Shown here one piece after another: positions 9,438-46,113 of a stretch of DNA of 64,000 nucleotides. This DNA is from an uncultured Allomuricauda sp. (GTDB taxonomy: Bacteria > Bacteroidota > Bacteroidia > Flavobacteriales > Flavobacteriaceae). The DNA is taken from assembly GCF_947495325.1 (NCBI RefSeq), contig NZ_CANLYK010000001.1, forward strand, positions 1,178,001-1,242,000. The letters run 5' to 3'. Numbering within the stretch: the stretch's first letter is position 1; each line of letters starts with the position of its first letter. A program made the translations under genes and the position numbers. The notes under the pieces were generated by a model. It was not told where the DNA came from, ran no database searches, and saw only the letters and a list, made by a program, of their open reading frames with translations.

Positions 9438-9501
9438 AGTCTCTCTTTATTAAGAAATTGATAATTTTTACTATTTTATTTTTAGGCATTCTTATTTTTT
9501 T

Positions 9502-9530
9502 GTCACCCTTTTTTTGATTTTAGTTGTCAT
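9502..9530 (+). promoter_or_regulatory. Candidate ECF-sigma-dependent promoter in front of fecR
   Basis: GTCACCC (9502-9508), 17 nt, then GTCAT (9526-9530), set in T-rich flanks between the sigma gene and the fecR start at 9563. The two-box layout fits an ECF promoter. The same boxes with the same 17-nt spacing recur at 28225-28253 behind a decayed sigma gene. Recognition by the ECF sigma at 8880 is inferred. Confidence 0.55.
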
Positions 9531-9562
9531 AACAATAGAATTGGTATATAAATCCGATATAG

Positions 9563-18807: not shown

Positions 18808-20007
18808 ATGAAACAACAATTAATTACAATAATTTTTGCTCTGGGAATTTTAAATATCAGTGCTCAAACTGCTTCAGATTCAAAGTGGTTATCAGGTTCA
18901 TGGGGAGTTCGCCTAATCGTTGAAGGCGGTGTAGAATTAGATAAAGCCAGCTCATATAGCGATTGGGTAAAAGGGGCACAGAATATTGCGGATAATCTGC
19001 CAACAGTTGGTCATGTATTTACAAATTTCACACATCGTGCCCATGGCTACTGGTTTACCTTAAGGGAAAATCCTTATGTAGACGTCGCTAAGGAAATTCA
19101 TCCTGAGTTTGTACCCTCTCTTGAAAATGAAAAAATCATTTTGGATGTCATTGATATATTACATAAAGGAGGAAAAAAAGTAATTCTCTACATCGCTACC
19201 GATGGTCCATCAGCAAGGTCAGGCACAAGAAATAATGCTGAATATAAGGCAGCTTGGGAAAACTATTACAATGCCAAATTTGATGGTGATGAAGGTTTGG
19301 CCTACCGTACTTTATGCAAAGGTTATATCGAAAGGTTTAAAGGTTTGGCAGATGGCTATTGGTTAGACCATGTGGGCGGAATTGCTGGAGAATTAACAGA
19401 TTTCATTGATATGATTCGAGAGGTAGACCCATCTGTTATGATAGCTTCTAACGGCATAGTGGAAAATGAGAGCTCAAATAAATCAAAGTATTTCAAAGAT
19501 GAAAATGGAGATGATTTGGAAGTGGATTCAGACGGGACAAATGACCCAGATGGTAGAAAATATAAAATAAGATCGTTTAATTTAAATGGTTCTTATGTTG
19601 ATTTTACTTCCGGTCACCCTACTCCTCTGGCTTGGGGAGCTCCACCTAATTCATGGGCATATGAAGAATTTACATTTCCTGAAATAGTAGACGCAATGGC
19701 TAGTTATGATCCAACCAAACATACTATAAAACACGCTTGGATGCCAATGCGTATGAAATGGACAAGTCCAAGGGCTAATTTGATGTTTGATGTAGAACAA
19801 GCCTATCGTTTTGTACGAACGCTGACGGATGCAGGTTGTGCCATTACCTGGGGAAACACACAAACAGATGGTTCTATGACAAAAGAAGAAATGGACATTA
19901 TGAAGGAAGTAGACAGAAGATTAAGAATGAAGCCTGTGCCTGATTATATTCCATATAAAAGACCTGCAGGAGCAAAATTGGTTGGAGAAACAAAAACTAA
20001 AGATTAA
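18808..20007 (+). CDS. Candidate endo-acting glycoside hydrolase, single-domain form (possible fucanase)
   Basis: 399 aa: signal peptide (MKQQLITIIFALGILNISAQ) plus one catalytic-type domain, with no binding module and no T9SS tail, so probably periplasmic. It shares with the N-terminal domains at 28411 and 32273 the blocks SGSWGVRLIVEGG, VGHVFTNFTHRAHGYWFTL, KKVILYI, ADGYWLD (Asp187), VDSDGTND, DFTSGH (His270), NSWAYEEFT (Glu286/287), KHAWMP, EQAYRFVRTLTDAG and PYKRPAGAKLVGET. Alternating strand/helix and the GYWLD motif suggest a TIM barrel. The Asp and Gly-His pair recalls GH107 endo-fucanases, which use an Asp nucleophile and a His acid/base, but GH168, GH174 or an undefined family fit as well. 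Fucanase activity is inferred from neighbours. Confidence 0.6.
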   Translation: MKQQLITIIFALGILNISAQTASDSKWLSGSWGVRLIVEGGVELDKASSYSDWVKGAQNIADNLPTVGHVFTNFTHRAHGYWFTLRENPYVDVAKEIHPEFVPSLENEKIILDVIDILHKGGKKVILYIATDGPSARSGTRNNAEYKAAWENYYNAKFDGDEGLAYRTLCKGYIERFKGLADGYWLDHVGGIAGELTDFIDMIREVDPSVMIASNGIVENESSNKSKYFKDENGDDLEVDSDGTNDPDGRKYKIRSFNLNGSYVDFTSGHPTPLAWGAPPNSWAYEEFTFPEIVDAMASYDPTKHTIKHAWMPMRMKWTSPRANLMFDVEQAYRFVRTLTDAGCAITWGNTQTDGSMTKEEMDIMKEVDRRLRMKPVPDYIPYKRPAGAKLVGETKTKD

Positions 20008-20032
20008 CTGTTGCCCATAAACGAGTAATCGT

Positions 20033-20076
20033 AAAGGTCATATATGCCTAACATACTGGCATTTAATGACTTTTAT
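20033..20076 (+). terminator. Imperfect hairpin, possible terminator or attenuator
   Basis: GTCAT..ATGCC (from 20037) can pair with GGCAT..ATGAC (20058-20070), followed by TTTTAT. The stem has a small bulge. It lies in the 162-bp gap before the SASA esterase and may separate the first two genes of the run from the rest. Confidence 0.35.
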
Positions 20077-20160
20077 GAAAAAAATAGCTATTAAATTATG
20101 ATTCTATTTTCATTAATTAAGAATTACAAATTTAACATGATAACTAATTAAAACAGAATA

Positions 20161-20166
20161 AGGAGG
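20161..20166 (+). promoter_or_regulatory. Unusually complete Shine-Dalgarno site
   Basis: AGGAGG sits only three bases before the ATG at 20170. Full Shine-Dalgarno sequences are rare in Bacteroidetes, and other genes of this window have AT-rich leaders. The spacing is shorter than the usual optimum. Confidence 0.5.
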
Positions 20167-20169
20167 TAA

Positions 20170-21696
20170 ATGAAACTTCTAGCTACTACACTATTCCTTT
20201 TAGCTACAATCGGGTTAAGCGCACAAACAAAGTTACCGGACATTTTATCCGACAATATGTGTTTGCAACAGTCTGCCGAAGTAAAAATATGGGGTTGGGA
20301 CATACCTGGACAAAAAGTATTCGTTAATCCATCGTGGGGAAAACAGTCGCAAACCATTACCGATAAAGAGGGTAAATGGCTAATACATATTAAAACACCA
20401 AAAGCCGGAAAAATAGGTGGAATAAAGGTAACAGGGTCTACACAACAAACTATTGGAAATATTGCGTTTGGTGAGGTTTGGTTGTGTTCGGGACAGTCGA
20501 ATATGGAAAGGCAATTAGGCCTTCGTAACGGTCAAAAACCCATTATCAATTTTTGGGAAGAAGCTAAAAAGGCAGATTACCCGAATATACGCATGTTTAA
20601 AGTTGCTACAGTTGCTTCGGAAATTCCACTTAACAATTGCCAGGGGAAATGGCTGGTATGCAACCCAGAAACCGTGTTTAAGTTTTCGGCAGTAGGGTAT
20701 TTTTATGCGCAGGCACTACACGAAAATTTGTCTGTCCCAGTTGGCTTGATTCAGTCATCCAGAGGAGGAACACCCGTTGAAGCATGGACACCAAAAACAG
20801 GAATCCATGAAGGATTACATGAAAAGTATAAAAATTTTGAAACATCCTTTCAAAAGGATAGAGATGAATACAACAGCGCATTAAATGATTTTAAAAGTGG
20901 ACTTATATCGGAATTTCCCTATATACCAGAAAGTGTTGACCGGCTTAAGAACAAATACAGAAAGTTATCGGTGTTGTATAATGGTATGATTTCACCGCTA
21001 ACCAACTACACCATAAAAGGTGTCATTTGGTATCAAGGCGAAGCAAACGTTCCATATTGGAAAGAGTATAAAACAGTATTCCCTAGTATGATAACAAGTT
21101 GGCGAAAGCAATGGGGTATTAGCGATTTTCCATTTTATTTTGTGCAAATTCCTCCCTACGATTACGATGATAAATATGGGATGCCATTTGGAATGCCAAA
21201 AATTGTGGAGGCTCAGTGTGAAGCATTAAAGCTTCCAAATACAGGAGTTGCGCCTACACAAGACATAGGTACATTTTATGATATTCATCCGCCGCATAAA
21301 AAGGAAGTTGGTCGCCGCTTATCTTTAATTGCCTTACATAAAACGTATAATAAAACAGATGTTGTTTATGCTGTGCCTTTTTTAAGTTCATATAAAAACG
21401 AAGGCAAAAACATAGTTCTTCAAATTGAAACACCGGGTTCCGAACTGTATTTATTATCCGCTGCAATTGGAGGAATTTGGGCTTTCCATATTGCTGGTGA
21501 AAATAAAATTTTCTATCCAGCTAATGTTAAGCAGGATGGGAATAAAATTCAATTAAGCTCGTCAAAGGTGGAACATCCGGTAGCGGTACGCTATAACTGG
21601 GCAAACAATGCGAATGCAACAATTTATAACAAACAAGGTTTACCTGCGCTCCCTTTTAGGACAGATGACTGGGACGAGGTTTTTTATGGAGAGTAA
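20170..21696 (+). CDS. SASA-family sialate O-acetylesterase-like carbohydrate esterase
   Basis: 508 aa with signal peptide MKLLATTLFLLATIGLSAQ. The N-terminus KLPDILSDNMCLQQSAEVKIWGW is typical of the family. The nucleophile block is GEVWLCSGQSNME (Ser110), then IQSSRGGTPVEAW and VIWYQGEAN, and the late Asp/His block is DIHPPHKKEVGRRL (Asp371, His373). Family members take acetyl groups off sugars; in this setting acetylated fucan or another algal glycan is a more likely substrate than sialic acid. A periplasmic location is expected. It lies 31 bp before the PhoD-like gene, very probably in the same transcript. Confidence 0.9.
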   Translation: MKLLATTLFLLATIGLSAQTKLPDILSDNMCLQQSAEVKIWGWDIPGQKVFVNPSWGKQSQTITDKEGKWLIHIKTPKAGKIGGIKVTGSTQQTIGNIAFGEVWLCSGQSNMERQLGLRNGQKPIINFWEEAKKADYPNIRMFKVATVASEIPLNNCQGKWLVCNPETVFKFSAVGYFYAQALHENLSVPVGLIQSSRGGTPVEAWTPKTGIHEGLHEKYKNFETSFQKDRDEYNSALNDFKSGLISEFPYIPESVDRLKNKYRKLSVLYNGMISPLTNYTIKGVIWYQGEANVPYWKEYKTVFPSMITSWRKQWGISDFPFYFVQIPPYDYDDKYGMPFGMPKIVEAQCEALKLPNTGVAPTQDIGTFYDIHPPHKKEVGRRLSLIALHKTYNKTDVVYAVPFLSSYKNEGKNIVLQIETPGSELYLLSAAIGGIWAFHIAGENKIFYPANVKQDGNKIQLSSSKVEHPVAVRYNWANNANATIYNKQGLPALPFRTDDWDEVFYGE

Positions 21697-21727
21697 AGTT
21701 TTACTAAAATTATTTAAATATATTTTT

Positions 21728-23359
21728 ATGAAGAATATTTTCTTTTTAACGTTGATAGGATTCTTGTTTATTAATTGTCAAACAAAAAAACAGGAAAGCA
21801 AACCCGAATTGCAATACACACAAAACGACAAGGATTGGTACACACGTAAATCTGGCATAACAAAATATTTAATTGAGATTGACGAAGGAGACCCAAAAGT
21901 AGCCGTTGACCATGCCAATAAACAAGATATTGACGCAGAAGCTTGCTTTGTAAAAGCACTTGCTTTTGCAAAAACAGGAAATGCAGATTCCGCTATGGTC
22001 CAAGTTAAAAAATCATTGGATTTGGGACTAAGTATCGACCGATATCAAGCGCCTCTCGAAATGCTTGTTCCTTTAAATAAGTTTCCAGCATTCAGCAATT
22101 TTATCAAAAAAAAGGGAAAAGCAATTGTACATGGACCAATGGTTGGCCATACCACTTCTAGTACTGCAAAAATTTGGTTACGAACATTTCAGGCATTAAA
22201 AGTTCAGATTATTTTAAGTGAAAATGAAACTTTTGAAAAGGAGATTTTATCAAAGGAAGTACAAACCTCAAAATCTACAGAGTTTACTGCTAAGCTTGAT
22301 GTTGAAGGGCTTACAGCGAATACCACATATTTTTATAAGGTTAAAATTGAGGGCAAAACCCAAAACAAAGTTTATAAATTTAAAACACAACCAATTGAAG
22401 GGCAGGCCAATGAGTTTGCCGTAGCTTTTGGTGGTGGTGGTGCTTACGTTCCCTGGCACTCCTACATGTGGAATACCTTAGACTCACATAATCTAAATGC
22501 AATGCTACTAATGGGCGATAATGTTTACATCGACTATCCGGAGTACCCAGACATTCAAAAGTATTGTTATAATCGTAGGCAAAGTAAGCCAGAGTTTCGT
22601 GACTTTTCATCCAGAACACCAATCCTTTCAATTTGGGATGACCACGATTTTGGGGATAATGACGAATTTGGAGGAAAGGAAATCGATACTCCGAAATGGA
22701 AACGTCCAGTTTATGAAGTGTTCCGAAATCAGTTTGCAAACCCTTATTATGGTGGTGGCGATAAAAATCCTGGCGTATGGTACGATTTCCAAATGGCAGA
22801 TGTTGATTTCTTTATGTTGGATTGCCGCTACTATCGTGAACCCTCAAGTGCTGATGGAAATATTACTGATCCCCAAATGTTGGGGCCAGTTCAGTTAAAT
22901 TGGTTAAAAGAGAAACTGCTGGCATCAAAAGGAACATTTAAAGTAATTGTTTCGAGCGTTCCCTGGGCCTATGGTGCAAAAAGTGGTATGTCAGGTCGAT
23001 TTGATACTTGGCGTGGTTACAAAAAAGAACGCAAGGAGATTTTTGACTTCCTTGCTGAAAATAAAATAGAGGGTGTTGTGCTTCTTTCTGCCGACCGTCA
23101 CCGGAGCGACTTATGGAAAATTGAACGCGAAAATGGCTACCCTTTATACGAGCTAGAAAGCTCAAAACTTGTAAATACACACACGCATGTATGTATGGAC
23201 GACCCTGAAAGAATTTTGTGCTACAACGAAAAATGTTCGTTTGGCAAGGTTATTTTCAATACCAAATTACCTGACCCAACACTGCATTATGAAATATGGA
23301 GCATTGATAATGAAAAAGTGGAAGAGTACACGATTAAACTTAGCGAACTGAAACATTAA
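21728..23359 (+). CDS. PhoD-like metallophosphatase lipoprotein
   Basis: 543 aa from ATG 21728; earlier in-frame ATGs overlap the esterase and lack a signal. The lipoprotein signal is MKNIFFLTLIGFLFINC. An N-terminal helical, TPR-like stretch (EACFVKALAFAKTGNADSA) precedes a fibronectin-like PhoD N-domain (about 135-230, GPMVGHTTSSTAKIWLRT; TTYFYKVKIEG). The metallophosphatase core has LLMGDNVYID, SIWDDHDFGDND and LLSADRHRSDLW. PhoD enzymes hydrolyse phosphomonoesters or diesters. It is unusual within a fucan-type locus and may serve phosphate-decorated glycan or an unrelated esterase role. The next gene, a sulfatase, starts 27 bp later. Confidence 0.88.
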   Translation: MKNIFFLTLIGFLFINCQTKKQESKPELQYTQNDKDWYTRKSGITKYLIEIDEGDPKVAVDHANKQDIDAEACFVKALAFAKTGNADSAMVQVKKSLDLGLSIDRYQAPLEMLVPLNKFPAFSNFIKKKGKAIVHGPMVGHTTSSTAKIWLRTFQALKVQIILSENETFEKEILSKEVQTSKSTEFTAKLDVEGLTANTTYFYKVKIEGKTQNKVYKFKTQPIEGQANEFAVAFGGGGAYVPWHSYMWNTLDSHNLNAMLLMGDNVYIDYPEYPDIQKYCYNRRQSKPEFRDFSSRTPILSIWDDHDFGDNDEFGGKEIDTPKWKRPVYEVFRNQFANPYYGGGDKNPGVWYDFQMADVDFFMLDCRYYREPSSADGNITDPQMLGPVQLNWLKEKLLASKGTFKVIVSSVPWAYGAKSGMSGRFDTWRGYKKERKEIFDFLAENKIEGVVLLSADRHRSDLWKIERENGYPLYELESSKLVNTHTHVCMDDPERILCYNEKCSFGKVIFNTKLPDPTLHYEIWSIDNEKVEEYTIKLSELKH

Positions 23360-23386
23360 ATAATCCTGTTACTCAATTTTCAATAT

Positions 23387-24919
23387 ATGATGAAATTGGT
23401 ATTGCCCCTTTATCTGCTTATGGTAGTTGGCTGTACGGCTAAAAAAGAGGTCATAGAAAGTACTCCAAATATTATAATCATTTACGCAGATGATTTGGGG
23501 TATGGCGATGTGAGCTGTTATAATAAACAGAGTGAAATCTCAACACCAAATATTGATAAACTGGCTGAAAATGGTATCCTGTTTACTGATGCACATTCAC
23601 CAAGTGGAATTTGTAGTCCTAGTAGATATGGTATTTTAACTGGTAGATATCCATGGCGTACTAGTCGTAAACGTGGAAACCCTAAACCTGGTGAACAACC
23701 ATGGATAGACCAAGGACGTGTAACTATTGCTAGTATGTTACAGGATTACGGTTATAACACAGCTGTTATTGGTAAATGGGGACTAGGATCTGATTGGAAA
23801 GCAGCTGCCAAACCGACAAGGGAAGGAATTGATATTTCTGCCAATGGTATTGACTATAACAAACCCATTTATAGTGGTAAGCCAGTAGGATTTACACATG
23901 AAGAAGTTCATCTCTGGTACGGACAAAAATATTATAAGAGAAAATATCCTTGCCATGATGTGCCTGGAACAAAAGAACACTCTGATGGAGGTCGATGGTA
24001 TTTTGAGAATGGTATTAGTAAGAACGGGAATCCTCAGTTTGATCAATTTGATATGGAAGAAGCACAAATGCATTATATCGCAAGAAGTGTTGATTACATA
24101 AATGCTGCAGCAAAAAACAGTAAAAGCTCAGGATATAATCTTAAAAAAGACGCACCTTTTTTCTTGTACTATGCACCTCATATACCTCATTATCCGCATG
24201 TGCCTGCTAAACAATTTCAGGGAACTTCTGGAGTTGGATTATATGGCGATTTTGTAAAAGAATTGGATTGGGCTGTTGGAGAAATAATTACTGTGCTTGA
24301 AAAGAACAACATATTAGATGAAACGTTAATCATTTTTACTTCGGATAATGGACCTGAATCTCAAACCTTTGGTTATATAAAAGAATATGGCCATTATGCC
24401 ATGAAAAATTTCAGAGGTGTAAAGCGAGACCTTTGGCAAGGTGGGCACACCATTCCTTTTATAGTTTCATATCCAAATAGGATTATTAAAACGGGAACAG
24501 AATCAAACCGTCTTATTTCTCAAACAGATATTTTATCTACCATAGCTGATTATTTGGATATTAAACTAGATAATAAAGGTGCGGAAGACAGTTATAGTTT
24601 TCTTGATGAAATTATTGATGGTTTTGAGGTTAAGGATAAGCGTGAAGTTGCAATACACCATAGTGCAAGTGGAAAATTAGCAATAAGACAAGGTGATTGG
24701 GTCTTTATAAATAGTAATGAAGGCAGAGACAATGAAGAACCAGATTGGTTTAAAGATAAGATTGGTGTTGTGACTCATAATGAAGATTTTGAGTTGTTTA
24801 ATTTGAGGAAAGATGCACAACAAACAACAAATCTTGTAAAAGAGTATCCAGAAAAGGCAAAAGAGCTAAAAAAACTTCTAACACAGTATGTTGACGAAGG
24901 AAGAACATTGGTACGATAA
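23387..24919 (+). CDS. S1-type formylglycine sulfatase, lipoprotein
   Basis: 510-aa sulfatase. The lipobox is VVGC (Cys16; translation may begin at the second Met). Metal Asp residues are in IYADDLGYGDVS, the formylglycine site is Cys76 in CSPSR, followed by YGILTGRYPWR, GKWGLGSDW and TSDNGPES. It differs from the two minus-strand sulfatases in having the long insert with YGQKYYKRKYPCHDVPG and a distinct C-terminus, so it belongs to another S1 subfamily. It pairs with the sulfatase 48 bp downstream; the two share the same N-terminal half layout (SPSGICSPSRYGILTGRY versus SSAVCTPTRYGILTGRY). Confidence 0.93.
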   Translation: MMKLVLPLYLLMVVGCTAKKEVIESTPNIIIIYADDLGYGDVSCYNKQSEISTPNIDKLAENGILFTDAHSPSGICSPSRYGILTGRYPWRTSRKRGNPKPGEQPWIDQGRVTIASMLQDYGYNTAVIGKWGLGSDWKAAAKPTREGIDISANGIDYNKPIYSGKPVGFTHEEVHLWYGQKYYKRKYPCHDVPGTKEHSDGGRWYFENGISKNGNPQFDQFDMEEAQMHYIARSVDYINAAAKNSKSSGYNLKKDAPFFLYYAPHIPHYPHVPAKQFQGTSGVGLYGDFVKELDWAVGEIITVLEKNNILDETLIIFTSDNGPESQTFGYIKEYGHYAMKNFRGVKRDLWQGGHTIPFIVSYPNRIIKTGTESNRLISQTDILSTIADYLDIKLDNKGAEDSYSFLDEIIDGFEVKDKREVAIHHSASGKLAIRQGDWVFINSNEGRDNEEPDWFKDKIGVVTHNEDFELFNLRKDAQQTTNLVKEYPEKAKELKKLLTQYVDEGRTLVR

Positions 24920-24967
24920 TCTGACTTTTAACAAACCATAGAAACAGTATACTTTAAAATAGTAAAA

Positions 24968-26512
24968 ATGAATTTAAATAAGAAACTTATAGTAGCATGT
25001 ACAATACTAATATCATTTAGTTCTTACGGGCAAACAAAGGTTGAAAAAAACGAAAAAAAACCAAATATCATTTTTATCCTAGCGGATGATTTAGGCTATG
25101 GTGATGTTTCCAGTTATAATGAAAACTCTAAAATTAAAACAGCTAACATAGATAAACTAGCTTCAGATGGCGTTCTGTTCACAGATGCGCACACAAGCAG
25201 TGCTGTTTGTACACCTACCCGTTATGGGATATTAACAGGACGATATAATTGGCGATCAACTCTTAAAAAGCACGTTTTACGAGGATATAACAAAGCCTTA
25301 ATTACGCCCGATAGAACAACTATAGCTGGTCTTTTAAAGACTAAAGGATACAAAACTGCCGGTATTGGTAAATGGCATTTAGGATGGGATTGGGCAAATA
25401 TCGAAAAAGGAAAGGACTCTGTTGATTTTTCTAAGAAAATAAAAAATGGACCTATAACACGTGGGTTTGATTATTGGTATGGATTTAATGGCTCATTGGA
25501 TATGGCGCCTTATGTATGGGTAGAAAATGACCAACCTACAATGGTACCTGCCAAGTTTACAGAAAATACAGGTCAAGCTATGTGGCGCAAGGGACTAACA
25601 TCCGATGATTTTGTACATGAACAAGTTTTACCGGAAATCACAACTAGAACAGTCAATTTTATAAATGAAAATGCAAAAAGCGACCAGCCATTTTTTCTAT
25701 ATATGCCTTTGCCAGCTCCTCATACCCCTATTTTACCAACAGACGATTTTAAAGGTAAAAGTGGACTGGACAATCCCTATGGTGATTTTGTGTTAATGGT
25801 AGATTGGGTAGTTGGAGAAGTAATGAAAGCATTAGATAAACAAGGTATTTATGAAAATACGATTGTAGTTTTTACAAGTGACAATGGCTGTTCCGATCAA
25901 GCAGATTTTGACCAATTAGCTACTAAAGACCATGATCCTAGTTATGTTTTCAGAGGGCACAAAGCAGATATTTTTGAAGGAGGTCATAGAGTGCCATTTA
26001 TAGTTAGATGGCCAGAAAAAGTCAAATCAGCCAAATCAAGGCAATTGGTCTGCACAACAGATTTTTTTGCGACCATTGCGGATGTCCTAGATGTTAAACC
26101 TGCCGATACTATGGCTGAGGATAGTTTTAGTTTTCTTCCAGCATTAAAAATCAAATCAAGTTCAACGGTTAGGGAAAGTATTGTTCACCATTCTATAAAT
26201 GGCTCTTTTGCGTTTCGAAAAAATGATTGGAAAGCGATTTTTTGTCCCGGTTCTGGTGGTTGGAGTTTTCCAAGACCAAGAGATAAAGCAGCCATTGATA
26301 GTTTACCCAAATTTCAATTATATAATTTAAGGAGTGACATTGGAGAAGAACATAATTTACAAAATCAGCAATCGGAATTATTGGAACAATATAGAAAAGA
26401 GCTTGCAGAAATTGTTTCTAATGGCAGAAGTACTGAAGGAGCAAAACAGAAAAATGACGGTCCAGAAACTTGGTCTCAGTTAAGTTGGATGGACGAAAAA
26501 ACAGATAATTAA
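24968..26512 (+). CDS. S1-type formylglycine sulfatase with CTPTR signature
   Basis: 514 aa. The N-terminal signal ends near SSYGQ, so it is soluble and secreted, not lipidated like the other four sulfatases. Active-site parts: FILADDLGYGDVS, Cys81 in CTPTR, YGILTGRYNWRS, GKWHLGWDW and TSDNGCSDQ. CTPTR still meets the sulfatase signature, which allows S, T or A after the proline. It is related to the preceding gene. A different leader from its neighbour suggests a different compartment, so the two may act at successive steps; that is inferred. Confidence 0.93.
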   Translation: MNLNKKLIVACTILISFSSYGQTKVEKNEKKPNIIFILADDLGYGDVSSYNENSKIKTANIDKLASDGVLFTDAHTSSAVCTPTRYGILTGRYNWRSTLKKHVLRGYNKALITPDRTTIAGLLKTKGYKTAGIGKWHLGWDWANIEKGKDSVDFSKKIKNGPITRGFDYWYGFNGSLDMAPYVWVENDQPTMVPAKFTENTGQAMWRKGLTSDDFVHEQVLPEITTRTVNFINENAKSDQPFFLYMPLPAPHTPILPTDDFKGKSGLDNPYGDFVLMVDWVVGEVMKALDKQGIYENTIVVFTSDNGCSDQADFDQLATKDHDPSYVFRGHKADIFEGGHRVPFIVRWPEKVKSAKSRQLVCTTDFFATIADVLDVKPADTMAEDSFSFLPALKIKSSSTVRESIVHHSINGSFAFRKNDWKAIFCPGSGGWSFPRPRDKAAIDSLPKFQLYNLRSDIGEEHNLQNQQSELLEQYRKELAEIVSNGRSTEGAKQKNDGPETWSQLSWMDEKTDN

Positions 26513-26621
26513 AAAGGTGCTGAATATTTTAAAAACTTTTCGATACCAATGTAGTATTAGAACAACATAAAGAGTAAGATTATAATAGTTCCCTATCGTA
26601 TTTACATTTAAATAAAAAATC

Positions 26622-27674
26622 ATGAAATATAAAATTCCTGCTTTAGCATCAATGGCAATAATTCTTTTATCCCTTTCCTGTAAAAAAGATCTATCCATAA
26701 AGGAATCATCTTTTGTTAAATCTCATGTAGCAGGAGATTATATTCTTGATGCACCAGAAAATTGGTGGCATTGGTGTATGGCTCCAATTTATGATGACTC
26801 TGGGAAATTACATGTATTTATGTCAGCTATTCCAAATGATGGAAGCTGGACAAAAGATAGTAAAATAGTACATTATACAGCTAAATCCCCAGAAGGGCCT
26901 TATACTTTCGTAGATACCACTTTTGCTAGCAACTCACACACCTATCATAATCCACAAATATCCCAAGTAAACGACACCTATATCCTAGTATATTTATTAA
27001 AGTCTATGGAAACCCCAAATATAAATCAAGAAATAGGTATTGCAACTTCTAAGTCTTTGGATGGTCCATGGAAGGAAAGTCCATATAACCCTATAATTAG
27101 AGCTACGGGTACACAAAAAGATGGTGCCAATATTATTCATGCCTCAAATCCTACTTTTTTAAAAGACAAAAATGGAAAATTCAGGATTTATTATAAATCC
27201 ATATCAGATGCTTTTGGAACAAACTGGAATCGTGAAATTTCTTTAGCAATGAGCGATAATATTGAAGGGCCTTATGAAAATTATCAAGAAAACCCTCTTA
27301 TTAGTTATGCAGATAAAGGTTTGGATATTGAAGATTGTTATGCCTTTTATTATAAAGACATGTATTATATGATTGTGGAAGATAGAAAGGGGGTAAAAAA
27401 TATGCTTGAAGGGAATCCTATTCCTGCGGAGGAAATTAAACTAGGGGGTAACCGTCCAGGATTAATTTATAAATCGGAGGATGGAATACATTGGGGGAAG
27501 CCTCAGGTTGGTTATAAAACAAATGAACAATACTTTGGAGATAAATTGGCACGTACCGAACGCCCACATATTTTATGGAAAAACGGAGAACCAGAATATC
27601 TTTTTCTTGCATGTCATGATGAAGACCCTTCAGCTGGGTTCTTTGTTAAAATTGAAGGATGGATTCCAGAGTAA
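26622..27674 (+). CDS. Lipoprotein beta-propeller of GH43/GH32-like type
   Basis: 350 aa, lipobox SLSC (Cys20). Repeated propeller strands are seen: KLHVFMSAIP, GPYTFVDTTF, DTYILVYLLKS, GKFRIYYKSIS, DMYYMIVEDRKG and EYLFLACHDED. The usual catalytic-Asp strands read WHWCMAPIYDD and HASNPTFLKDKNG, the latter with Asn where GH43 has Asp; a possible general-acid Glu lies in GLDIEDCYAFYY. It therefore belongs to the broad five-bladed clan but not clearly to a defined family, and could be GH117-like. It is the last gene of the run 16373-27674 and lies just before the pseudogene zone. Substrate unknown. Confidence 0.7.
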   Translation: MKYKIPALASMAIILLSLSCKKDLSIKESSFVKSHVAGDYILDAPENWWHWCMAPIYDDSGKLHVFMSAIPNDGSWTKDSKIVHYTAKSPEGPYTFVDTTFASNSHTYHNPQISQVNDTYILVYLLKSMETPNINQEIGIATSKSLDGPWKESPYNPIIRATGTQKDGANIIHASNPTFLKDKNGKFRIYYKSISDAFGTNWNREISLAMSDNIEGPYENYQENPLISYADKGLDIEDCYAFYYKDMYYMIVEDRKGVKNMLEGNPIPAEEIKLGGNRPGLIYKSEDGIHWGKPQVGYKTNEQYFGDKLARTERPHILWKNGEPEYLFLACHDEDPSAGFFVKIEGWIPE

Positions 27675-27699
27675 AAGAAGAACTGAAAATAGATCTAAA

Positions 27700-27823
27700 A
27701 TTTTCAGAATTAGCACTATTGTTATGCTACAATACCCGCCTATTGCATTGGCTTAAAATAAGCCCAATATCATCAATTATACAAACAGATGACCAAGGGT
27801 ATAGTGATATGAGCATATTATAA
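27700..27823 (+). pseudogene. Remnant of a sulfatase N-terminus
   Basis: One frame reads KPNII (27760-27774) after a leader-like stretch and a stop. One base out of frame the text continues as IIQTDDQGYSDMS (27776-27814), the typical sulfatase metal-binding start, followed by a stop. A frameshift therefore interrupts an N-terminal sulfatase sequence and no CxPxR motif follows. A weak YNLKEN match near 27850 recalls a sulfatase C-terminus, hinting at a large internal deletion. The region lies in the 736-bp gap after the propeller gene. Confidence 0.55.
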
Positions 27824-27965
27824 CAGGTACGCCGAAGAGTTTTTTACAACCTGAAAGAAAATGGAGATAGCCATAGACGGACTTTTTATCAACAGGCAGA
27901 GATGAAGGCTTCCACGCAAAAGGCTTCAGATTAATCTTCGTCAAAATCAAAAAGTTTAAGAAAAT

Positions 27966-28156
27966 AAAAAACTCAAGATGACCCACCATCAATAAATAGT
28001 AAAACTCCATACCATGATTATTGTTTATTACAAGTATCTGCAATTGCTAAGGAACTTGGAATGTCCTTACATAACTTAAACCTAAGCTCAGAAGAAGACA
28101 ATATAAAAATCAATAAGATGATAACTTCAATATCACGTTTATTGCAAATCAATTAA
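27966..28156 (+). pseudogene. Decayed 3' end of an ECF sigma factor gene
   Basis: A stop-free stretch of about 60 codons ends AIAKELGMSLHN...ITSISRLLQIN, then stop. It aligns with the C-terminus of the intact sigma gene (EIAAELGVSINT...ELITSIIILLQVN). DNA similarity is clear over 28030-28156. The sigma domains upstream are gone and the recognition-helix region (TVKTQLKRGKLR in the intact gene) is changed to an acidic sequence, so it cannot work. Behind it lies the same promoter motif that follows the intact sigma gene, but no fecR. Confidence 0.65.
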
Positions 28157-28224
28157 AAAGAGTATTGATTATTTGAGAATATATTATTTTTTATTATTAA
28201 AATTTTAAGTATTCCTATTTTTTT

Positions 28225-28253
28225 GTCACCCTTTTTTTGTTCTCAATTGTCAT
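28225..28253 (+). promoter_or_regulatory. Second copy of the ECF-type promoter motif, upstream of the T9SS enzyme cluster
   Basis: GTCACCC (28225-28231), 17 nt, GTCAT (28249-28253): same boxes and same spacing as 9502-9530. Over roughly 44 bp the two copies differ at about five positions, although the sigma remnant next to it has drifted much further. The next gene starts at 28411. Control by the ECF sigma at 8880 is a hypothesis. Confidence 0.5.
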
Positions 28254-28265
28254 AGTATTAGTTAT

Positions 28266-28354
28266 GGTATAATTATCTGACCTCAATACAATATAAATAT
28301 CTTACTTAAATACAATATAAATATCTGACATTAATATAATTTAAATCTGACTTA
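28266..28354 (+). repeat. 24-bp tandem repeat upstream of the 28411 gene
   Basis: Two 24-bp units (28285-28308 and 28309-28332) share AATACAATATAAATATCT and then TACTTA or GACATT. A degenerate third unit follows to about 28354 and a partial one precedes from about 28266. Each carries a TCTGAC or TCTTAC core. It lies between the ECF-type motif and the start codon, a good place for a regulator site; the function is unknown. Confidence 0.65.
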
Positions 28355-28410
28355 TTATAAACCCTATTCAAAACATGTTTGTTTAAACTAAACCATTAAA
28401 CTATGTAATC

Positions 28411-31400
28411 ATGAAAAAAACAATTACCTCATTATTCATCCTTATTGCTTTTACAGTATCAGCCCAACAACCCGAAACCGATTGGTTAGCTGGGGAGTGG
28501 GGTATAACCTTCCCTGTTTATGGAGGTGGTAAGCTTAACGCAGAAATGAACAGTAACAATCCAGATTATGTATCTGGCGCACAGGAAATAGTTGACGAAT
28601 TGCCTGCTGTAGGTCATGTAATCACCAATATGACCAATTTTGCAAATGCTCAATGGTTTACGCTAAGCGCTAATGCCAACGTAGATGTTGCCAACGAAAT
28701 ACACTCAACCATGGTTCCAAATGCTGCTAATGATGAAATTATTTTTGATGTTTTGCAAACTTTTAAAGATGGAGATAAGAAAGTAATTTTATATATATCA
28801 TGTCAATTAACCTTTGAAAGAGCAACTACTGCTATTCAAGATGCTTGGGTAGCATATTATACAAATAATTTTGGAGGAGATCGATATGCAGCCTACAGAG
28901 ACCTGATACAAGGTTTTATTTTAAACGTAAAAGACTATGCTGATGGTTATTGGCTGGATACTGTAGGTAATCTTTCAACCGATGGTCCTGATTTTGTTGC
29001 GATGATAAAGGCAGCTGATCCAGGAGCAATTGTTGCCGTCAATGCTAACAAAAAATACATCACACTAGACGGTTCTGAAATTCAAGTAGATTCAGATGGT
29101 ACAAACGATGATGACCCTTCAAATTATAAAGTAGTAGTACACGAACCACGAACCAACACACAGGATTTTTCACATGGTCACGTCTCACCTGTTGGTGTTG
29201 CCCCTACAAACTCTTGGGCTTACGAAGAGTTTACCATACCAAATATGGTTGAAAACCCATATTTTACGCTATTTGACCGAGCTAGATTAAAACATGCATG
29301 GTTTCCTACTAGGGAAAGATGGCACTTACCAGATAGGTTTTTGCTGTATGATACAGAACAAGCCTACAGATTTGTAAGAAGAATTACCGATGCAGGAGCA
29401 TCTGTGACTTGGGCTACAACTACAGATCCTGGACCCCTTGATCCAGATGCCGCTGAATGGGGTTATGAAACAGCAGGGCATATGATGCCAGATGAAATGG
29501 CTATCATGAAGGAGATAAATAACCGAATGTTAATGAGTACAAAGCCAGATTACGTGCCTTATGTAAGACCTGCAGGAGCTTTTCTAGTAGGTGAAACAGC
29601 ACCTAATTACTATCAACATATTGACTTTCAGTCATTAAAGGATAAACAAGTGGGGGACGCAGATTTCTCTCCTAAGGCAACAGCAAGTTCAGGGTTAAGT
29701 GTTACATATACCAGTTCAAATACTTCCGTTGCAACTATCGTAAATGGAAACATCCGTATCCAAGGAGAGGGTACTACCAATATTACGGCATCACAAGGTG
29801 GAAATTCAACATTTGCAGCTGCATCGAGTGTAGTAAGACAGTTAACGGTTACTAGTGGAGGAACAGGAGGAACCACAAACCTAGCTCATAATGCGCCAGC
29901 GACTCAATCCACAACATTAGGAGATGCGGTAGCATCTCGAGCTAATGATGGAGACACCAATGGAAACTTTGGAGGAGACTCTGTATCAGCAGCTGGAGGT
30001 CCAAATGCCTGGTGGGAAGTAGATTTAGAAGGCAATTATAGCATTGATGACATAGTTATTTTCAATAGAACAAACAATTGTTGTAAAGCTCGCTTATCAG
30101 ATTTTACAGTATCAGTTATCGATAGTAATGGAACTACCACGTTTACACAAACCATTACTACAGCACCCAATCCCTCTATCACACTGGACGCAGGTGGTGC
30201 CATTGGTCAGGTTGTTAGGATACAATCGAATCTTACCGAAACATTGAATCTCGCAGAAGTAGAGGTGTATGGAAGTGAAAGTTCAAAGCTAGATCAAACG
30301 ATAACCTTTAACTTACCCGCGAAGCAACTAGGTGATGCGGACTTTGATCCAGCGACAGCTAGCTCCGGCTATAACATTTCCTATACGAGCTCAAATACCA
30401 ATGTAGCGACTATTGTTAATGGGAATATAAGAATCGTAGGCGTAGGAACTTCAGAAATAACGGCATCTCAAGCAGGAAATGTTATTTATAACCCAGCTCC
30501 AAGTATAACACGTACCTTGGTCGTTACCGATGGAAACACAGGAGGAAGCACAAACCTAGCTTATAATGCACCAGCAACCCAATCCACAACATTAGGAGAT
30601 GCCGTAGCATCTCGAGCTAATGATGGAGACACCAATGGAAACTTTGGAGGAGACTCTGTATCAGCAGCTGGAGGTCCAAATGCCTGGTGGGAAGTAGATT
30701 TAGAAGGCAATTATAGCATTGATGACATAGTTATTTTCAATAGAACAAACAATTGTTGTAAAGCTCGCTTATCAGATTTTACAGTATCAGTTATCGATAG
30801 CAGTGGAACTACCACGTTTACACAGACCATTACTACAGCACCGAATCCTTCTGTCACACTGAATGCTGGTGGTGCCATTGGTGAGGTTGTTAGAATCCAA
30901 TCGAACCTTACCGAAACATTGAACCTTGCCGAAGTAGAGGTATATGGATCTCAATCAAATACCAACAATACGATTACGATCCAAGAAAATGCGACTGGTT
31001 TTTGTGATGTGGACGGTGTGATCCAAAGTGCCGATGCAGGTTATACGGGCAGTGGTTATGCAAACACATCCAATGCACTCGGAAGGGCGATAGATTGGGA
31101 AATAGACGGTACTGCCGGGTCTTATACTTTCGTATGGCGTTATTTGGTAGGCTCCGCTCGGACTGCCGACCTCATTGTTGACGGAACGACCGTGGCCACT
31201 GGTATTTCATTTGTGAACACACAAGGTGGATGGTTGACCGCAGAAGCAACCGTTGGTTTAGGAGCAGGAGTGAAATCCGTCATCCTTAGTTCCACCAGTA
31301 GTACGGGTCTTGCCAAAATAGATTATCTCGAGGTGACCGGACCGGATGTTGTCGTTTCGGAATGTGTCACCTCCAGTCCGTTACGGGCAATTCTTGATCT

Positions 31401-31656
31401 AAAGGCTCCAGACACGGACACCGAGGACATACTCCATTTCTACCCGAATCCCACAACGGATATACTCAATGTTGAGATCAACGGTTCAAATGACGCCCAG
31501 CTCGATATCATCAACAGCACGGGACAGAATGTGATCTCAAAGCATATGGAGAACGGAAGCACTTCCGTTGACATGACCAGGCTCCCCCTAGGATTATATA
31601 TCCTTAAGGTAACGGATGAAAAACAAATACGGACCAAGAAAATAATTAAAAAATAG
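28411..31656 (+). CDS. Multimodular T9SS-secreted candidate endo-hydrolase (possible fucanase)
   Basis: 1081 aa. Signal peptide to about 19, then the same catalytic-type domain as at 18808 (about 20-395; Asp183 in DGYWLD, SHGH, NSWAYEEFT, KHAWFP, EQAYRFVRRITDAG). After it: Ig-like domain (about 405-485, TYTSSNTSVATIV), F5/8-type-C module (488-622, WWEVDLEGNYSIDD and NRTNNCCKAR), second Ig-like (627-706), second F5/8C (714-848), CBM6/35-like module (850-975) and T9SS type A sorting domain (about 1005-1081, FYPNPTTDILNVEI...KKIIKK). It should be exported through T9SS and act on polymer at or outside the cell surface. The F5/8C modules resemble fucolectins. The catalytic assignment is inferred; the architecture is clear. 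Confidence 0.75.
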   Translation: MKKTITSLFILIAFTVSAQQPETDWLAGEWGITFPVYGGGKLNAEMNSNNPDYVSGAQEIVDELPAVGHVITNMTNFANAQWFTLSANANVDVANEIHSTMVPNAANDEIIFDVLQTFKDGDKKVILYISCQLTFERATTAIQDAWVAYYTNNFGGDRYAAYRDLIQGFILNVKDYADGYWLDTVGNLSTDGPDFVAMIKAADPGAIVAVNANKKYITLDGSEIQVDSDGTNDDDPSNYKVVVHEPRTNTQDFSHGHVSPVGVAPTNSWAYEEFTIPNMVENPYFTLFDRARLKHAWFPTRERWHLPDRFLLYDTEQAYRFVRRITDAGASVTWATTTDPGPLDPDAAEWGYETAGHMMPDEMAIMKEINNRMLMSTKPDYVPYVRPAGAFLVGETAPNYYQHIDFQSLKDKQVGDADFSPKATASSGLSVTYTSSNTSVATIVNGNIRIQGEGTTNITASQGGNSTFAAASSVVRQLTVTSGGTGGTTNLAHNAPATQSTTLGDAVASRANDGDTNGNFGGDSVSAAGGPNAWWEVDLEGNYSIDDIVIFNRTNNCCKARLSDFTVSVIDSNGTTTFTQTITTAPNPSITLDAGGAIGQVVRIQSNLTETLNLAEVEVYGSESSKLDQTITFNLPAKQLGDADFDPATASSGYNISYTSSNTNVATIVNGNIRIVGVGTSEITASQAGNVIYNPAPSITRTLVVTDGNTGGSTNLAYNAPATQSTTLGDAVASRANDGDTNGNFGGDSVSAAGGPNAWWEVDLEGNYSIDDIVIFNRTNNCCKARLSDFTVSVIDSSGTTTFTQTITTAPNPSVTLNAGGAIGEVVRIQSNLTETLNLAEVEVYGSQSNTNNTITIQENATGFCDVDGVIQSADAGYTGSGYANTSNALGRAIDWEIDGTAGSYTFVWRYLVGSARTADLIVDGTTVATGISFVNTQGGWLTAEATVGLGAGVKSVILSSTSSTGLAKIDYLEVTGPDVVVSECVTSSPLRAILDLKAPDTDTEDILHFYPNPTTDILNVEINGSNDAQLDIINSTGQNVISKHMENGSTSVDMTRLPLGLYILKVTDEKQIRTKKIIKK
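29590..31656 (+). repeat. Accessory-module cassette, copy 1
   Basis: DNA encoding Ig-like, F5/8C, Ig-like, F5/8C, CBM6-like and T9SS domains is nearly identical in long blocks to 33590-35533 and 36810-38600. Even the bases just after the stop are shared with copy 3 (GCC, one variable base, TGATGCCTGTGAT). Within the copy, the two F5/8C units are also nearly identical at DNA level. This points to recent duplication or gene conversion. Confidence 0.85.
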
Positions 31657-31825
31657 AGCCGTGATGCCTGTGATTTAGTTCACTGGTAATATTAAAGTGA
31701 TTCCATTAGTTTTTAGATAAGCTATAGGACTAAAACAAATCATAGGTGACGGTTTTGAGAATAGTATAACCTAAGGGATATAATAGTAGTCTCTGTTAAT
31801 GACTACAAACAATAATAACTCAAAA

Positions 31826-32178
31826 ACCCAAACCAATTGGTTATCAAAATATTGAAGAGCAACTTTCCCTTTATAAAGAGGCGCTCGTCTTAATGTCTAA
31901 ATAAATAATGCTTATGACTATATAAAAGAGCTGCAGAAATCAGTGCAAAAATTACCTAGCGTTGAAGGCATATTAACCAATTTTATAGGTAAGGCCAATG
32001 CACATCTTTTTACATTAAGAACAGACCCCAATTCAGAAGCTATTATGGGATAAACTGGTAAGGAACCAGCTAGGTAATTTGTGCCAAATTTAGAAAATGA
32101 ACAGCCTATAATTGATGTAATTACTGTATGTAAACATGCTGGTATAAAAGTAATTTTTATATGAAAGACATGAATTTT
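31826..32178 (+). pseudogene. Dead copy of the candidate endo-hydrolase family
   Basis: A single frame reads TQTNWLSKY-stop, then KELQKSVQKLPSVEGILTNF, KANAHLFTLRTDPNSEAI, FVPNLENEQPIIDVITVCK and HAGIKVIFI. These match YVEEARRIVRDYPTMGHVITNF, NANGSLFLLRENPD, FFPSIENEQIILDVIQVFK and DAGIKVILY of the intact gene just downstream. At least six in-frame stops break it, no frameshift is needed, and the second half of the domain is missing. It covers only the N-terminal 110-120 residues. It fills most of the 616-bp gap between the two intact paralogues. Confidence 0.8.
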
Positions 32179-32272
32179 CCATCAAGGGGATTAATGAAAA
32201 AGATTACCAATGACAATCCTATGTTGATTGATTTTTTTGAATGAATTAAACTAAACATTAAATAACAATATC

Positions 32273-35200
32273 ATGAAAAACACTAACAAACTAATACTTA
32301 TTTTTTTAAAAAAAGTACTGTTTTTACAAATAAAAGCAGTGGTCTTATTAACTTTTTTAATCGTTTGTTCCGATATAATAAGCGCACAGACCTCAGAAGT
32401 TCCATGGATGGAAGGCTCCTGGGGAGTACGATTAATTATTAGAGGCGGAGAAGATCTAGACACTTTTGTGACTAATGGTTATGACTATGTTGAAGAAGCT
32501 AGGCGGATAGTTAGAGATTATCCTACTATGGGTCACGTTATTACAAATTTTACTAACAATGCAAACGGTAGCTTATTTCTATTAAGAGAGAACCCCGATA
32601 TACCTGGTTTGGCTAATCAACTTCATCCGCGATTTTTTCCAAGCATAGAGAATGAACAAATTATTCTTGATGTTATACAAGTATTTAAAGATGCAGGTAT
32701 TAAAGTGATTCTATACATGAAGCACAGACCTGGAATGGGTGATGGTACTACAGCTCAAATAAATTCTTGGAATAATTATACAGGAGGCACAAACAACTTT
32801 CAATATTTTGAAGAGATATGTGCAGGCTTTGCAAAGCGTTTTGATGGCTTAATTGATGGCTATTGGATTGATAATTTTGGGGGGGCAAATACAACTATTC
32901 CTGCAAAAACTAGTTTTGTTAATGCTCTTTTAGCTGCCCATACTATACAAAAACCAGTTATTGCTACAAATTGGAAGAAATCATATTTCTCTGGTATTCA
33001 AGTGGATTCGGATGGTCCTGGTGAAAGAGATCCAGATAATTACCAAATAATAAAATATCAAGCTAACGATGTCTGGTCTGATTATACACATGGTCACGTT
33101 ACCTCAATAGGTGGACAAAAAGCACCATCAAATTCTTTTGGGTATGATGAATTTACACTTCCAGACTTTGAAGTTAGTGGTGTATCTGTAAGCGCTGAGT
33201 CAGGTAAAACACTTGTAAAACATATGTTTGCTCCAATTCGTAGACGTTGGTCTCAATATACTGAACCATTATATTACGAGGAAGATCAAGCCTATAGATT
33301 TGTAAAAAGAATTACAGATGCTGGAGGAGCAATTACTTTTTCTACAACAATTGGGCCTGGTGGTATAGGTCCAGCAGATGAGATAAGGGTATTAAAGCAT
33401 GTGGATGCACAATTGGCGGCTAATGCGGATTACGTGCCCTATGTGAGGCCAGCAGGTGCATTTTTGGTGGGTGAAACAACACCTAATTACAATCAAGTTA
33501 TTGATTTCAAAGAGATAGATAATAAACAAGTAGGTGATCCAGACTTTTTTCCTTTTGCATATGCTAGTTCTGGAGCCTCAGTTACGCTTACCAGTTCAAA
33601 TACTTCCGTTGCAACTATCGTAAATGGAAACATCCGTATCCAAGGAGAGGGTACTACCAATATTACGGCATCACAAGGCGGAAATTCAACATTTGCAGCT
33701 GCATCAAATGTAGTAAGACAGTTAACGGTTACTAGTGGAGGAACAGGAGGAACCACAAACCTTGCCTTAAATGGAACAGCGACACAATCCACAACATTAG
33801 CCGGTGCCGTAGCATCTCGAGCTATTGATGGTGACACCAATGGAAACTTTGGGGGTAATTCCGTATCAGCTGCCGAAGGGCCCAATGCCTGGTGGGAAGT
33901 GGACCTTGGGGACAACTATGAGATTGACGACATCAATGTTTTCAACAGAACAAACAATTGTTGTTCAAGTCGATTATCAGATTTTACCGTATCCGTTATC
34001 AATAGCGGTGGTACCACAACCTTTACACAGACCATTACCACTGCACCCAATCCTTCCGTAACACTGGACGCTGGTGGTGCGGTTGGGCAGGTCGTCAGGA
34101 TACAATCCAACCTTACCACTACATTGAACCTTGCCGAAGTAGAGGTATATGGAAGTGAAAGTTCTAAGCTTGATCAAACCATTACCTTTAACCTACCAGC
34201 GAAGCAACTTGGTGATGCGGACTTTGATCCTGCCACTGCCAGCTCAGGATACAATATTTCATATACCAGCTCAAATACCAATGTGGCCACTATTGTTAAT
34301 GGAAACATTAGAATCATTGGTGTAGGAACTTCTGAAATAACGGCTTCCCAAGCTGGAAACGTTGTTTATAACCCTGCCCCAAGTGTAACCCGTACATTGG
34401 TCGTTACCGATGGGAACACGGGAGGAACCACTAACCTTGCCTTGAATGGAACAGCGACCCAATCCACAACATTAGCCGGTGCCGTAGCATCACGAGCCAA
34501 TGATGGTGACACCAATGGAAACTTTGGGGGTAATTCCGTATCGGCTGCCGAAGGGCCCAATGCTTGGTGGGAAATAGATTTAGAAGGCAGTTATAGCATT
34601 GATGACATAGTTATTTTCAATAGAACAAACAATTGTTGTTCAAGTCGACTATCTGATTTCACGGTATCCGTTATCAATAGTAGTGGTACCACAACCTATA
34701 CACAGACCATTACCACTGCGCCCAATCCCTCTGTCACACTGGATGCTGGTGGTGCGGTTGGTCAGGTCGTTAGGATACAATCCAACCTTACCACTACTTT
34801 GAACCTTGCAGAAGTAGAGGTATATGGATCTCAATCGAATACCAACAATACCATTACGATCCAGGAAAACACGACTGGTTTTTGTGATGTGGATGGTGTG
34901 ATACAAAGTGCCGATGCAGGTTATACGGGCAGTGGTTACGCAAACACATCCAATGCACTGGGAAGGGCAATAGATTGGGAAATAGACGGTACTGCCGGGT
35001 CTTATACTTTCGTATGGCGTTATTTAGTAGGTTCTGCTCGAACTGCAAATCTCATTGTAGACGGAACGACCGTGGCCACTGGTATTTCATTTGTCGATAC
35101 ACAAGGTGGATGGTTGACCGCAGAAGCAACCGTTGGTTTAGGAGCAGGAGTGAAATCCGTCATCCTTAGTTCCACCAGTAGTACGGGTCTTGCCAAAATA

Positions 35201-35533
35201 GATTATCTCGAGGTAACCGGACCCGATGTTGTCGCTTCCGCATGTGCCTCCAGTTCGTTAAAAGTAATTCTTGACCTAAAGGCTCCAGACACGGACACCG
35301 AGGACATACTCCATTTCTACCCGAATCCCACAACGGATATACTCAATGTTGAGATCAACGGTTCAAATGACGCCCAGCTCGATATCATCAACAGCACGGG
35401 ACAGAACGTGATCTCAAAGCATATGGGGAACGGAAGCACTTCCGTTGACATGACCAGGCTCCCCCTTGGGTTATATATCCTTAAGGTAACGGACCAAAAA
35501 CAGGTACGGACCAAGAAAATAATCAAAAAATAA
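32273..35533 (+). CDS. Multimodular T9SS-secreted candidate endo-hydrolase, paralogue 2
   Basis: 1086 aa with a long N-terminal signal segment ending near IISAQ (about residue 39). Catalytic-type domain about 40-405: SWGVRLIIRGGEDL, GHVITNFTNNANG, GYWIDNFGG (Asp200), VDSDGPGERD, DYTHGH (His275), NSFGYDEFT, EDQAYRFVKRITDAG, PYVRPAGAFLVGET. Then Ig-like (415-490), F5/8C (495-630), Ig-like (630-708), F5/8C (718-852), CBM6/35-like (858-985) and T9SS type A domain (1010-1086). The catalytic part is clearly diverged from its neighbour at 28411 while the C-terminal cassette is nearly the same at DNA level, so specificity may differ while binding and export are shared. A terminator follows. Confidence 0.75.
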   Translation: MKNTNKLILIFLKKVLFLQIKAVVLLTFLIVCSDIISAQTSEVPWMEGSWGVRLIIRGGEDLDTFVTNGYDYVEEARRIVRDYPTMGHVITNFTNNANGSLFLLRENPDIPGLANQLHPRFFPSIENEQIILDVIQVFKDAGIKVILYMKHRPGMGDGTTAQINSWNNYTGGTNNFQYFEEICAGFAKRFDGLIDGYWIDNFGGANTTIPAKTSFVNALLAAHTIQKPVIATNWKKSYFSGIQVDSDGPGERDPDNYQIIKYQANDVWSDYTHGHVTSIGGQKAPSNSFGYDEFTLPDFEVSGVSVSAESGKTLVKHMFAPIRRRWSQYTEPLYYEEDQAYRFVKRITDAGGAITFSTTIGPGGIGPADEIRVLKHVDAQLAANADYVPYVRPAGAFLVGETTPNYNQVIDFKEIDNKQVGDPDFFPFAYASSGASVTLTSSNTSVATIVNGNIRIQGEGTTNITASQGGNSTFAAASNVVRQLTVTSGGTGGTTNLALNGTATQSTTLAGAVASRAIDGDTNGNFGGNSVSAAEGPNAWWEVDLGDNYEIDDINVFNRTNNCCSSRLSDFTVSVINSGGTTTFTQTITTAPNPSVTLDAGGAVGQVVRIQSNLTTTLNLAEVEVYGSESSKLDQTITFNLPAKQLGDADFDPATASSGYNISYTSSNTNVATIVNGNIRIIGVGTSEITASQAGNVVYNPAPSVTRTLVVTDGNTGGTTNLALNGTATQSTTLAGAVASRANDGDTNGNFGGNSVSAAEGPNAWWEIDLEGSYSIDDIVIFNRTNNCCSSRLSDFTVSVINSSGTTTYTQTITTAPNPSVTLDAGGAVGQVVRIQSNLTTTLNLAEVEVYGSQSNTNNTITIQENTTGFCDVDGVIQSADAGYTGSGYANTSNALGRAIDWEIDGTAGSYTFVWRYLVGSARTANLIVDGTTVATGISFVDTQGGWLTAEATVGLGAGVKSVILSSTSSTGLAKIDYLEVTGPDVVASACASSSLKVILDLKAPDTDTEDILHFYPNPTTDILNVEINGSNDAQLDIINSTGQNVISKHMGNGSTSVDMTRLPLGLYILKVTDQKQVRTKKIIKK
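33590..35533 (+). repeat. Accessory-module cassette, copy 2
   Basis: Second copy of the Ig-like/F5/8C/Ig-like/F5/8C/CBM6/T9SS cassette. Its F5/8C units carry the variant NALNGTAT-type start and CCSSRLSDF instead of CCKARLSDF, while the flanking Ig-like and CBM6 segments agree closely with copies 1 and 3, so the copies are mosaics of each other. Confidence 0.85.
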
Positions 35534-35544: not shown

Positions 35545-35578
35545 CCGGCGATTTTTATCGCCGGTAGTTCTTGTTTTT
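35545..35578 (+). terminator. GC-rich hairpin terminator
   Basis: CCGGCGAT (35545-35552), a TTTT loop and ATCGCCGG (35557-35564) form a perfect 8-bp stem, followed by a T-rich stretch to 35578. It lies just after the stop at 35533 and separates the second endo-hydrolase from the esterase gene. Confidence 0.75.
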
Positions 35579-35597
35579 CACTTTAAATGATATAATC

Positions 35598-44331: not shown

Positions 44332-44359
44332 GGAGATTGTTAACACAAAAAGAAAAAAC

Positions 44360-46030: not shown

Positions 46031-46055
46031 TTTCGAGTTAACTGAATTATAAATC

Positions 46056-46106: not shown

Positions 46107-46113
46107 AAATTCT

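Follow-up and report, generated by a model that had tools for sequence, protein, structure and literature searches.

Three genes of the window (the whole stretch of DNA analysed, 64,000 nucleotides) were assigned with high confidence to the GH107 endo-fucanases, an activity predicted for the copies of this genome from their sequences. The original prediction had described a three-gene family with a common domain of about 370 residues. Both the genes (copy A, 399 aa; copy B, 1081 aa; copy C, 1086 aa; Table 1) and the domain were recovered, the latter being visible in the alignment together with the blocks proposed as invariant: DGYW-L/I-D, VDSDG, GH, E/D-EFT, QAYRFV, TDAG, RPAGA and LVGET. The local identity to A was 43% for B (E 1.1e-102) and 39% for C (E 4.5e-78), far beyond chance. 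The domain make-up was also as anticipated: A consists of a single domain, whereas F5/8-type (galactose-binding-like) modules were found in both B and C together with a T9SS sorting domain (E 6.9e-13 to 1.9e-17), besides weaker Ig-like or related matches. This make-up agrees with the proposal of one periplasmic and two surface enzymes, and B and C are probably exported by the T9SS and held at the surface through their shared tails. The description of the family as under-described had to be abandoned, since the domain is that of GH107, for which solved structures and characterised members exist, and A is essentially Mef1.

Table 1. Features of the window, with the positions of the three copies and of their predicted catalytic residues.
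Feature	Position	Strand	Evidence
Copy A, predicted single-domain GH107 endo-fucoidanase, Mef1 orthologue	18808..20007	+	392/399 residues as in PDB 8bpd
Predicted catalytic residues of A	D187 19366-19368, H270 19615-19617	+	alignment
Copy B, GH107 barrel (residues ~22-398) with Big_2/F5-8/CBM6-like/T9SS tail	28411..31656	+	profile and PDB matches, alignment
Predicted catalytic residues of B	D183 28957-28959, H257 29179-29181	+	alignment
Segment of B unlike Mef2 of G013 (barrel and first Ig-like domain)	28475..29852	+	DNA identity, better conserved flanks
Decayed GH107 N-terminal remnant (stops: 2 TGA, 4 TAA)	~31826-32164	+	protein and profile search of own genome
Copy C, GH107 barrel (residues ~39-404) of separate clade with B-like tail	32273..35533	+	PDB matches, tree, alignment
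Predicted catalytic residues of C	D200 32870-32872, H275 33095-33097	+	alignment
Neighbour D, AXE1-like esterase domain with B/C-type tail	35571..38600	+	AXE1 E 2.6e-5, 23.6 bits (cut-off 21)
SusC/SusD pair diverged from collinear G013 pair	41143..46030	+	53% and 57% aa identity
AXE1-type esterase in divergent block	46114..47442	+	no orthologue in 80 kb of G013 (best 33%)
GHL15 protein related to solved GH168 endo-fucanases	49360..50487	+	PF14885 E 5.6e-60
GH95	16367
SASA esterase	20170
PhoD-like	21608
Sulfatases	2294, 7027, 23387, 24968, 55012
GH43-like	6038, 26622
GH29 (two)	38650, 47474
AXE1-like esterases	35571, 46114
SusC/D pairs (two)	10796/14083, 41143/44360
Hybrid two-component regulator	50776
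ECF sigma factor and FecR	8799, 9563

Family assignment and traits of the three copies

Searches of the PDB retrieved two solved GH107 enzymes, 8bpd (Mef1) and 6m8n (P5AFcnA, from Psychromonas), as whole-domain homologues of A, B and C. A matched 8bpd with an E of 1.9e-277 over the whole domain, and the entire catalytic domains of B and C matched 8bpd (E 5.9e-94 and 2.6e-77, respectively) and 6m8n (E 3.4e-95 and 1.6e-64). Mef1 has been described as an endo-alpha(1,4)-fucoidanase of GH107 whose catalytic residues are D187 and H270, and its identity to other characterised members of this broad family is 17-51% (PMC10619423).

The alignment and the tree comprised 56 domains: P5AFcnA, seven from the window and the sister genome G013, and 48 kept of 51 matching open frames after three short ones were dropped. 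The own-genome or congener loci L001-L005 and L041-L049, except L043, were omitted from those frames, and loci L054-L077 lie outside the tree. The equivalents of D187, H270, Y128, P313 and W318 of Mef1 were found in all 56 domains and that of N215 in 45, A, B and C among them; the catalytic Asp and His and the Tyr, Asn, Pro and Trp of the -1 subsite are all kept in the three copies. In B, A and C, respectively, the catalytic nucleophile falls on Asp183, Asp187 and Asp200, the residues singled out in the original prediction. At the position of Ala130 of Mef1 the domains carry Asn (23), Ser (19), Ala (11), Lys (2) or His (1). The DxxxGH motif is present in the three copies, and RxxxxxDxxxxD is complete in A and C; its conserved Arg is Asn in B, as read from the translation, and Val in the accepted GH107 member Mef2 (PMC9147238). 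Homology to solved GH107 enzymes supports the endo-fucanase activity, the TIM barrel and the GH107-like Asp/His pair proposed at the outset. A (beta/alpha)8 barrel with the Asp as nucleophile and the His as acid/base would cut alpha-L-fucosyl bonds within sulfated fucan; the residues of this mechanism were placed by alignment, and we infer the fold and the chemistry from published Mef1, P5AFcnA and MfFcnA.

Among other families considered, GH29 and GH168 were not matched: none of the three copies was hit by the GH29 model Alpha_L_fucos at E up to 10, a search in which the HMMER filters drop most weak matches, and neither a GHL15 match in Pfam nor a GH168 chain among the PDB matches of the three copies was found. 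MfFcnA (6dlh) was the first GH107 described. A profile of 27 domains matched five PDB sequences, of which only 8bpd and 6m8n are solved GH107 enzymes; 6dlh, whose presence in the searched PDB copy is unverified, was not matched at E up to 10, and the link to the MfFcnA branch therefore rests on papers. That MfFcnA stays out of the profile's reach, and that neither Pfam nor NCBIfam gave a credible match to the shared domain even at E up to 10 (which would explain its unassigned look), could point to a new unclassified glycosidase family resembling GH107 by convergence. Such a family is extremely improbable, and was excluded by the full-length homology to two solved GH107 enzymes, with the catalytic positions kept and 392 of the 399 residues of A identical to 8bpd.

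Copy A has the single-domain form of Mef1 from Muricauda eckloniae, with its catalytic and calcium motifs, and groups with it in the tree. The seven substitutions between A and 8bpd over 399 residues (S22A, V61A, V303T, G342A, N354D, R375K and M377V) affect none of the 16 positions tabulated from the alignment. As a Mef1 orthologue, A most likely cuts alpha(1,4) bonds. P5AFcnA is also a single-domain enzyme, with Asn at the Ala130 position; the Mef1 paper determined no linkage for it and advises against inferring linkage from the GH107 phylogeny (PMC10619423).

Copy B, Mef2 and four others form a set of six in the tree (96/89), in which Mef2 is a long branch (0.86) whose placement was rated unsure by the tree tool. 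Mef2 is described as the GH107 endo-alpha(1,3)-fucoidanase of M. eckloniae, and the CBM6-like label given here to the tail of B was taken from that description (PMC9147238); the Big_2 match in B is below the Pfam cut-off. B resembles Mef2 in its slot in the locus, its signal peptide, a similar tail, the Ser at the Ala130 position and the motif YADGYWLDTV, but the two barrels are about 50% identical, the first Ig-like domain is different, and the VDSDG calcium motif, kept in B, is missing from Mef2. From its grouping with Mef2, B probably cuts alpha(1,3) bonds; because of the identity of about 50%, the replaced Arg and the retained VDSDG, its linkage cannot be read off Mef2, and we warn against naming B as Mef2 by position.

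Copy C belongs to another set of six (100/100), for which no characterised member was found in open-licence papers or in the Mef1 motif table. Lys occupies the Ala130 position, in the -1 subsite, in two of the 56 domains, namely the C copies of the window and of G013. The remaining four members of the clade have Asn, and none of the 10 rows of the Mef1 motif table has Lys at this site. This odd Lys raises the alternative that C is no longer an endo-fucanase but serves in binding or catalyses another reaction, which we consider unlikely: the Asp, His, Tyr, Asn, Pro and Trp are all retained, and the barrel is 99.0% identical to that of G013, with dN 0.004 and dS 0.030, although so few changes make this a weak test. 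Copy C is probably an endo-fucanase. No published characterisation of the barrels of B and C was found in open-licence papers.

Locus setting and distribution

The genes surrounding A, B and C (Table 1) fit a fucoidan utilisation locus. The start of neighbour D is probably the ATG at 35598, as read from the sequence. The gene at 49360, separate from the GH107 trio, encodes a relative of GH168 endo-fucanases in the same locus; its PDB matches were 9nhf (E 2.1e-241), 9jom (FUN168E, E 7.8e-166) and 8ya6 (E 2.1e-47), the GH168 family names of the solved enzymes being those in PMC11943901. Nothing linking GHL15 with fucanase, and nothing on a Mef3 fucoidanase, was found in open-licence papers.

Additionally, the intergenic stretch 28027-28271 showed 70% DNA identity to 9304-9548, which takes in the end of the ECF sigma gene and continues past it. 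The stretch also gave a weak protein match (38% over 47 aa, E 2e-6), and it is perhaps a sigma-factor remnant. Beside the locus lies a SprB-repeat protein with a CHU_C T9SS signal (58674-63893), with no match in 80 kb of G013.

Three of the 71 genomes of the genus matched a three-row profile, and eight of 397 genomes drawn from the family matched at E up to 1e-20, the own genome being included in both counts. A pattern scan of species genomes yielded at least 35 distinct loci, mostly in marine Flavobacteriaceae and also in Saprospiraceae, Fulvivirga and Gammaproteobacteria; the scan used two short peptide patterns, so other loci may be missed. No plasmid record matched copy A, and the 31 pattern matches in viral contigs (A3 query) contained no relatives.

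Collinearity with the sister genome

G013 encodes Mef1 letter for letter, and a 1067-residue gene of this genome carries the five published Mef2 motifs at their published positions, with D182/H260; G013 is therefore probably M. eckloniae. The window and G013 are collinear, 27 of the 29 window frames being matched in 80 kb of G013, 23 of them with 87-100% aa identity. The four outliers were B (70% overall), SusC2 (53%), SusD2 (57%) and the esterase at 46114 (33%, a paralogue). The long collinear pieces were 94.4%, 92.3%, 89.7% and 91.5% identical in DNA, and the left flank 95.0% on average (sd 2.5, 36 windows of 1 kb). Of two 8-kb samples taken from other parts of G013, one was 94% identical over nearly its full length and the other 93-95% over two pieces that together make up about 3.1 of its 8 kb. 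Moreover, the first SusC (10796-14185; 87% DNA identity, dS 0.52) is more divergent from G013 than the nearby GH95 and Mef1 genes, and G013 contains an extra block (L050, C2:275380-283454) that comprises a gene of 1595 aa and another GH107 gene, of 1088 aa, without a counterpart there in the window.

In the block 41143-47560, which holds the second SusC/SusD pair and the AXE1-type esterase, the DNA identity declines at about 41500 and is regained near 47600, between flanks that are about 90% identical. The best matches to SusD2 of the window showed 50-59% identity in G013, G469, G828, G466 and G465, and 34% in G467, with none in G468; SusD2 of G013 was 56-70% identical to its best match in G828, G466, G469 and G465 and 59% to that of the window, with none in G467 and G468. 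From these best matches, the exchange of the SusC/D pair more likely occurred in the lineage of the window.

The 616-base intergenic stretch between B and C differs from G013 at five positions. It contains the decayed GH107 remnant, which was detected in the own genome with an E of 1.7e-10 by protein search and 2.9e-21 by profile; its stop tally is the same in G013, and it is nearest to the X and C clades (about 45% identity). The remnant and the barrel of C (31800-33400) were 98-100% identical to G013 in 200-base windows, compared with 95% in the left flank, perhaps through a recent exchange.

The B/Mef2 slot and the shared tails

Among the GH107 genes, B was the exception to this similarity. 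The identity to G013 was 63-98% over 27631-28098 and 92-98% over 28099-28457, into the signal peptide (98% at 28398-28457); it fell to 77% at 28458-28517 and 32-75% at 28518-29852, and returned to 68-100% at 29853-31772. These identities refer to 60-column windows, and the ends of the divergent segment were resolved to about 60 bases. The barrels of B and Mef2 were 60.8% identical in DNA, with dN 0.38 and dS 2.5, a value near saturation, compared with DNA identities of 97.1% for A and Mef1, 99.0% for the C barrels and 94.9% for GH95.

The shared position and signal peptide, the related tail and the grouping in the tree (96/89) would fit B as a vertical orthologue of Mef2, with a barrel that evolved fast without recombination. 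Against this, the dS of the barrel far exceeds the 0.03-0.52 of six other genes or barrels of the locus and the 0.56 of the B/Mef2 tail (SusC2 reached 1.6, and SusD2 gave no value), and the edges are sharp on both sides. Moreover, L007 and L008 (Fulvivirga), both from more distant organisms, contain barrels that are 92% and 84% identical to that of B, respectively. Simple vertical orthology is therefore very unlikely, and was rejected on the contrasts in barrel dS and identity. Mef1-like genes are also present in L007 and L008, where the gene order is similar except that some genes are absent or lie elsewhere.

Exchange of the barrel within a conserved frame, relative to the sister species, is the preferred reading, although it is less certain than the GH107 class. 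The loci and genomes compared contained no close donor of the Mef2 barrel; its best whole-domain identity was 50-51% among the loci and 50-55% at the best place in each of six genomes. Close to the end of locus L015, of Algibacter miyuki, 109 residues matched at 67%, and this match can most likely be ascribed to a gene of that genome (G465) with 50% identity across the full domain. When 395 genomes of the order were searched with the Mef2 barrel at E up to 1e-20, only the window's own genome matched, and G013 was not among the matches. The simplest inference, on which few genomes bear, is that the slot formerly held a B-type barrel and that M. eckloniae gained the Mef2 barrel. Within open-licence papers, no report of an exchange at this slot was found, nor any on gene conversion in polysaccharide utilization loci of flavobacteria or on recombination of fucoidanase catalytic domains in such loci.

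The tails were compared from the first F5/8 domain through the gene end. Those of B, C and D were 87.1-91.3% identical in DNA (D, 91.3% to B and 89.6% to C), in a patchy pattern that reached 98-99% in some blocks of 150 columns. The tail of C shares 93.3% with G013 but 87.1% with B, and homogenisation in the window would thus be partial. The three L037 tails were 89.4-92.9% identical among themselves and 78.8-86.5% to others, and those of three neighbouring G013 genes were 100.0% identical over 1773 bases, which could be an assembly artefact. These patterns suggest that gene conversion, or recent or repeated duplication, keeps the tails of B, C and D alike, and they fit a recombination in which barrels are swapped between tails of this shared type. 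A broader proposal, which we put forward tentatively and hold to be possible rather than probable, is that of a plug-in locus: the alike T9SS/binding tails and the signal-peptide side would anchor swaps of barrels, and separately of SusC/D and the esterase, at set positions and so adapt the locus to a different fucoidan, with the Mef2 barrel as a newcomer in an ancestrally B-type slot.

These results settle the class of the three genes and offer B and C as GH107 barrels open to tests of linkage and sulfation preference. They also describe two species whose shared locus is for the most part collinear and similar but diverges sharply at one endo-enzyme barrel and one SusC/D pair, a comparison that would make the link between enzyme, transporter and type of fucoidan testable.
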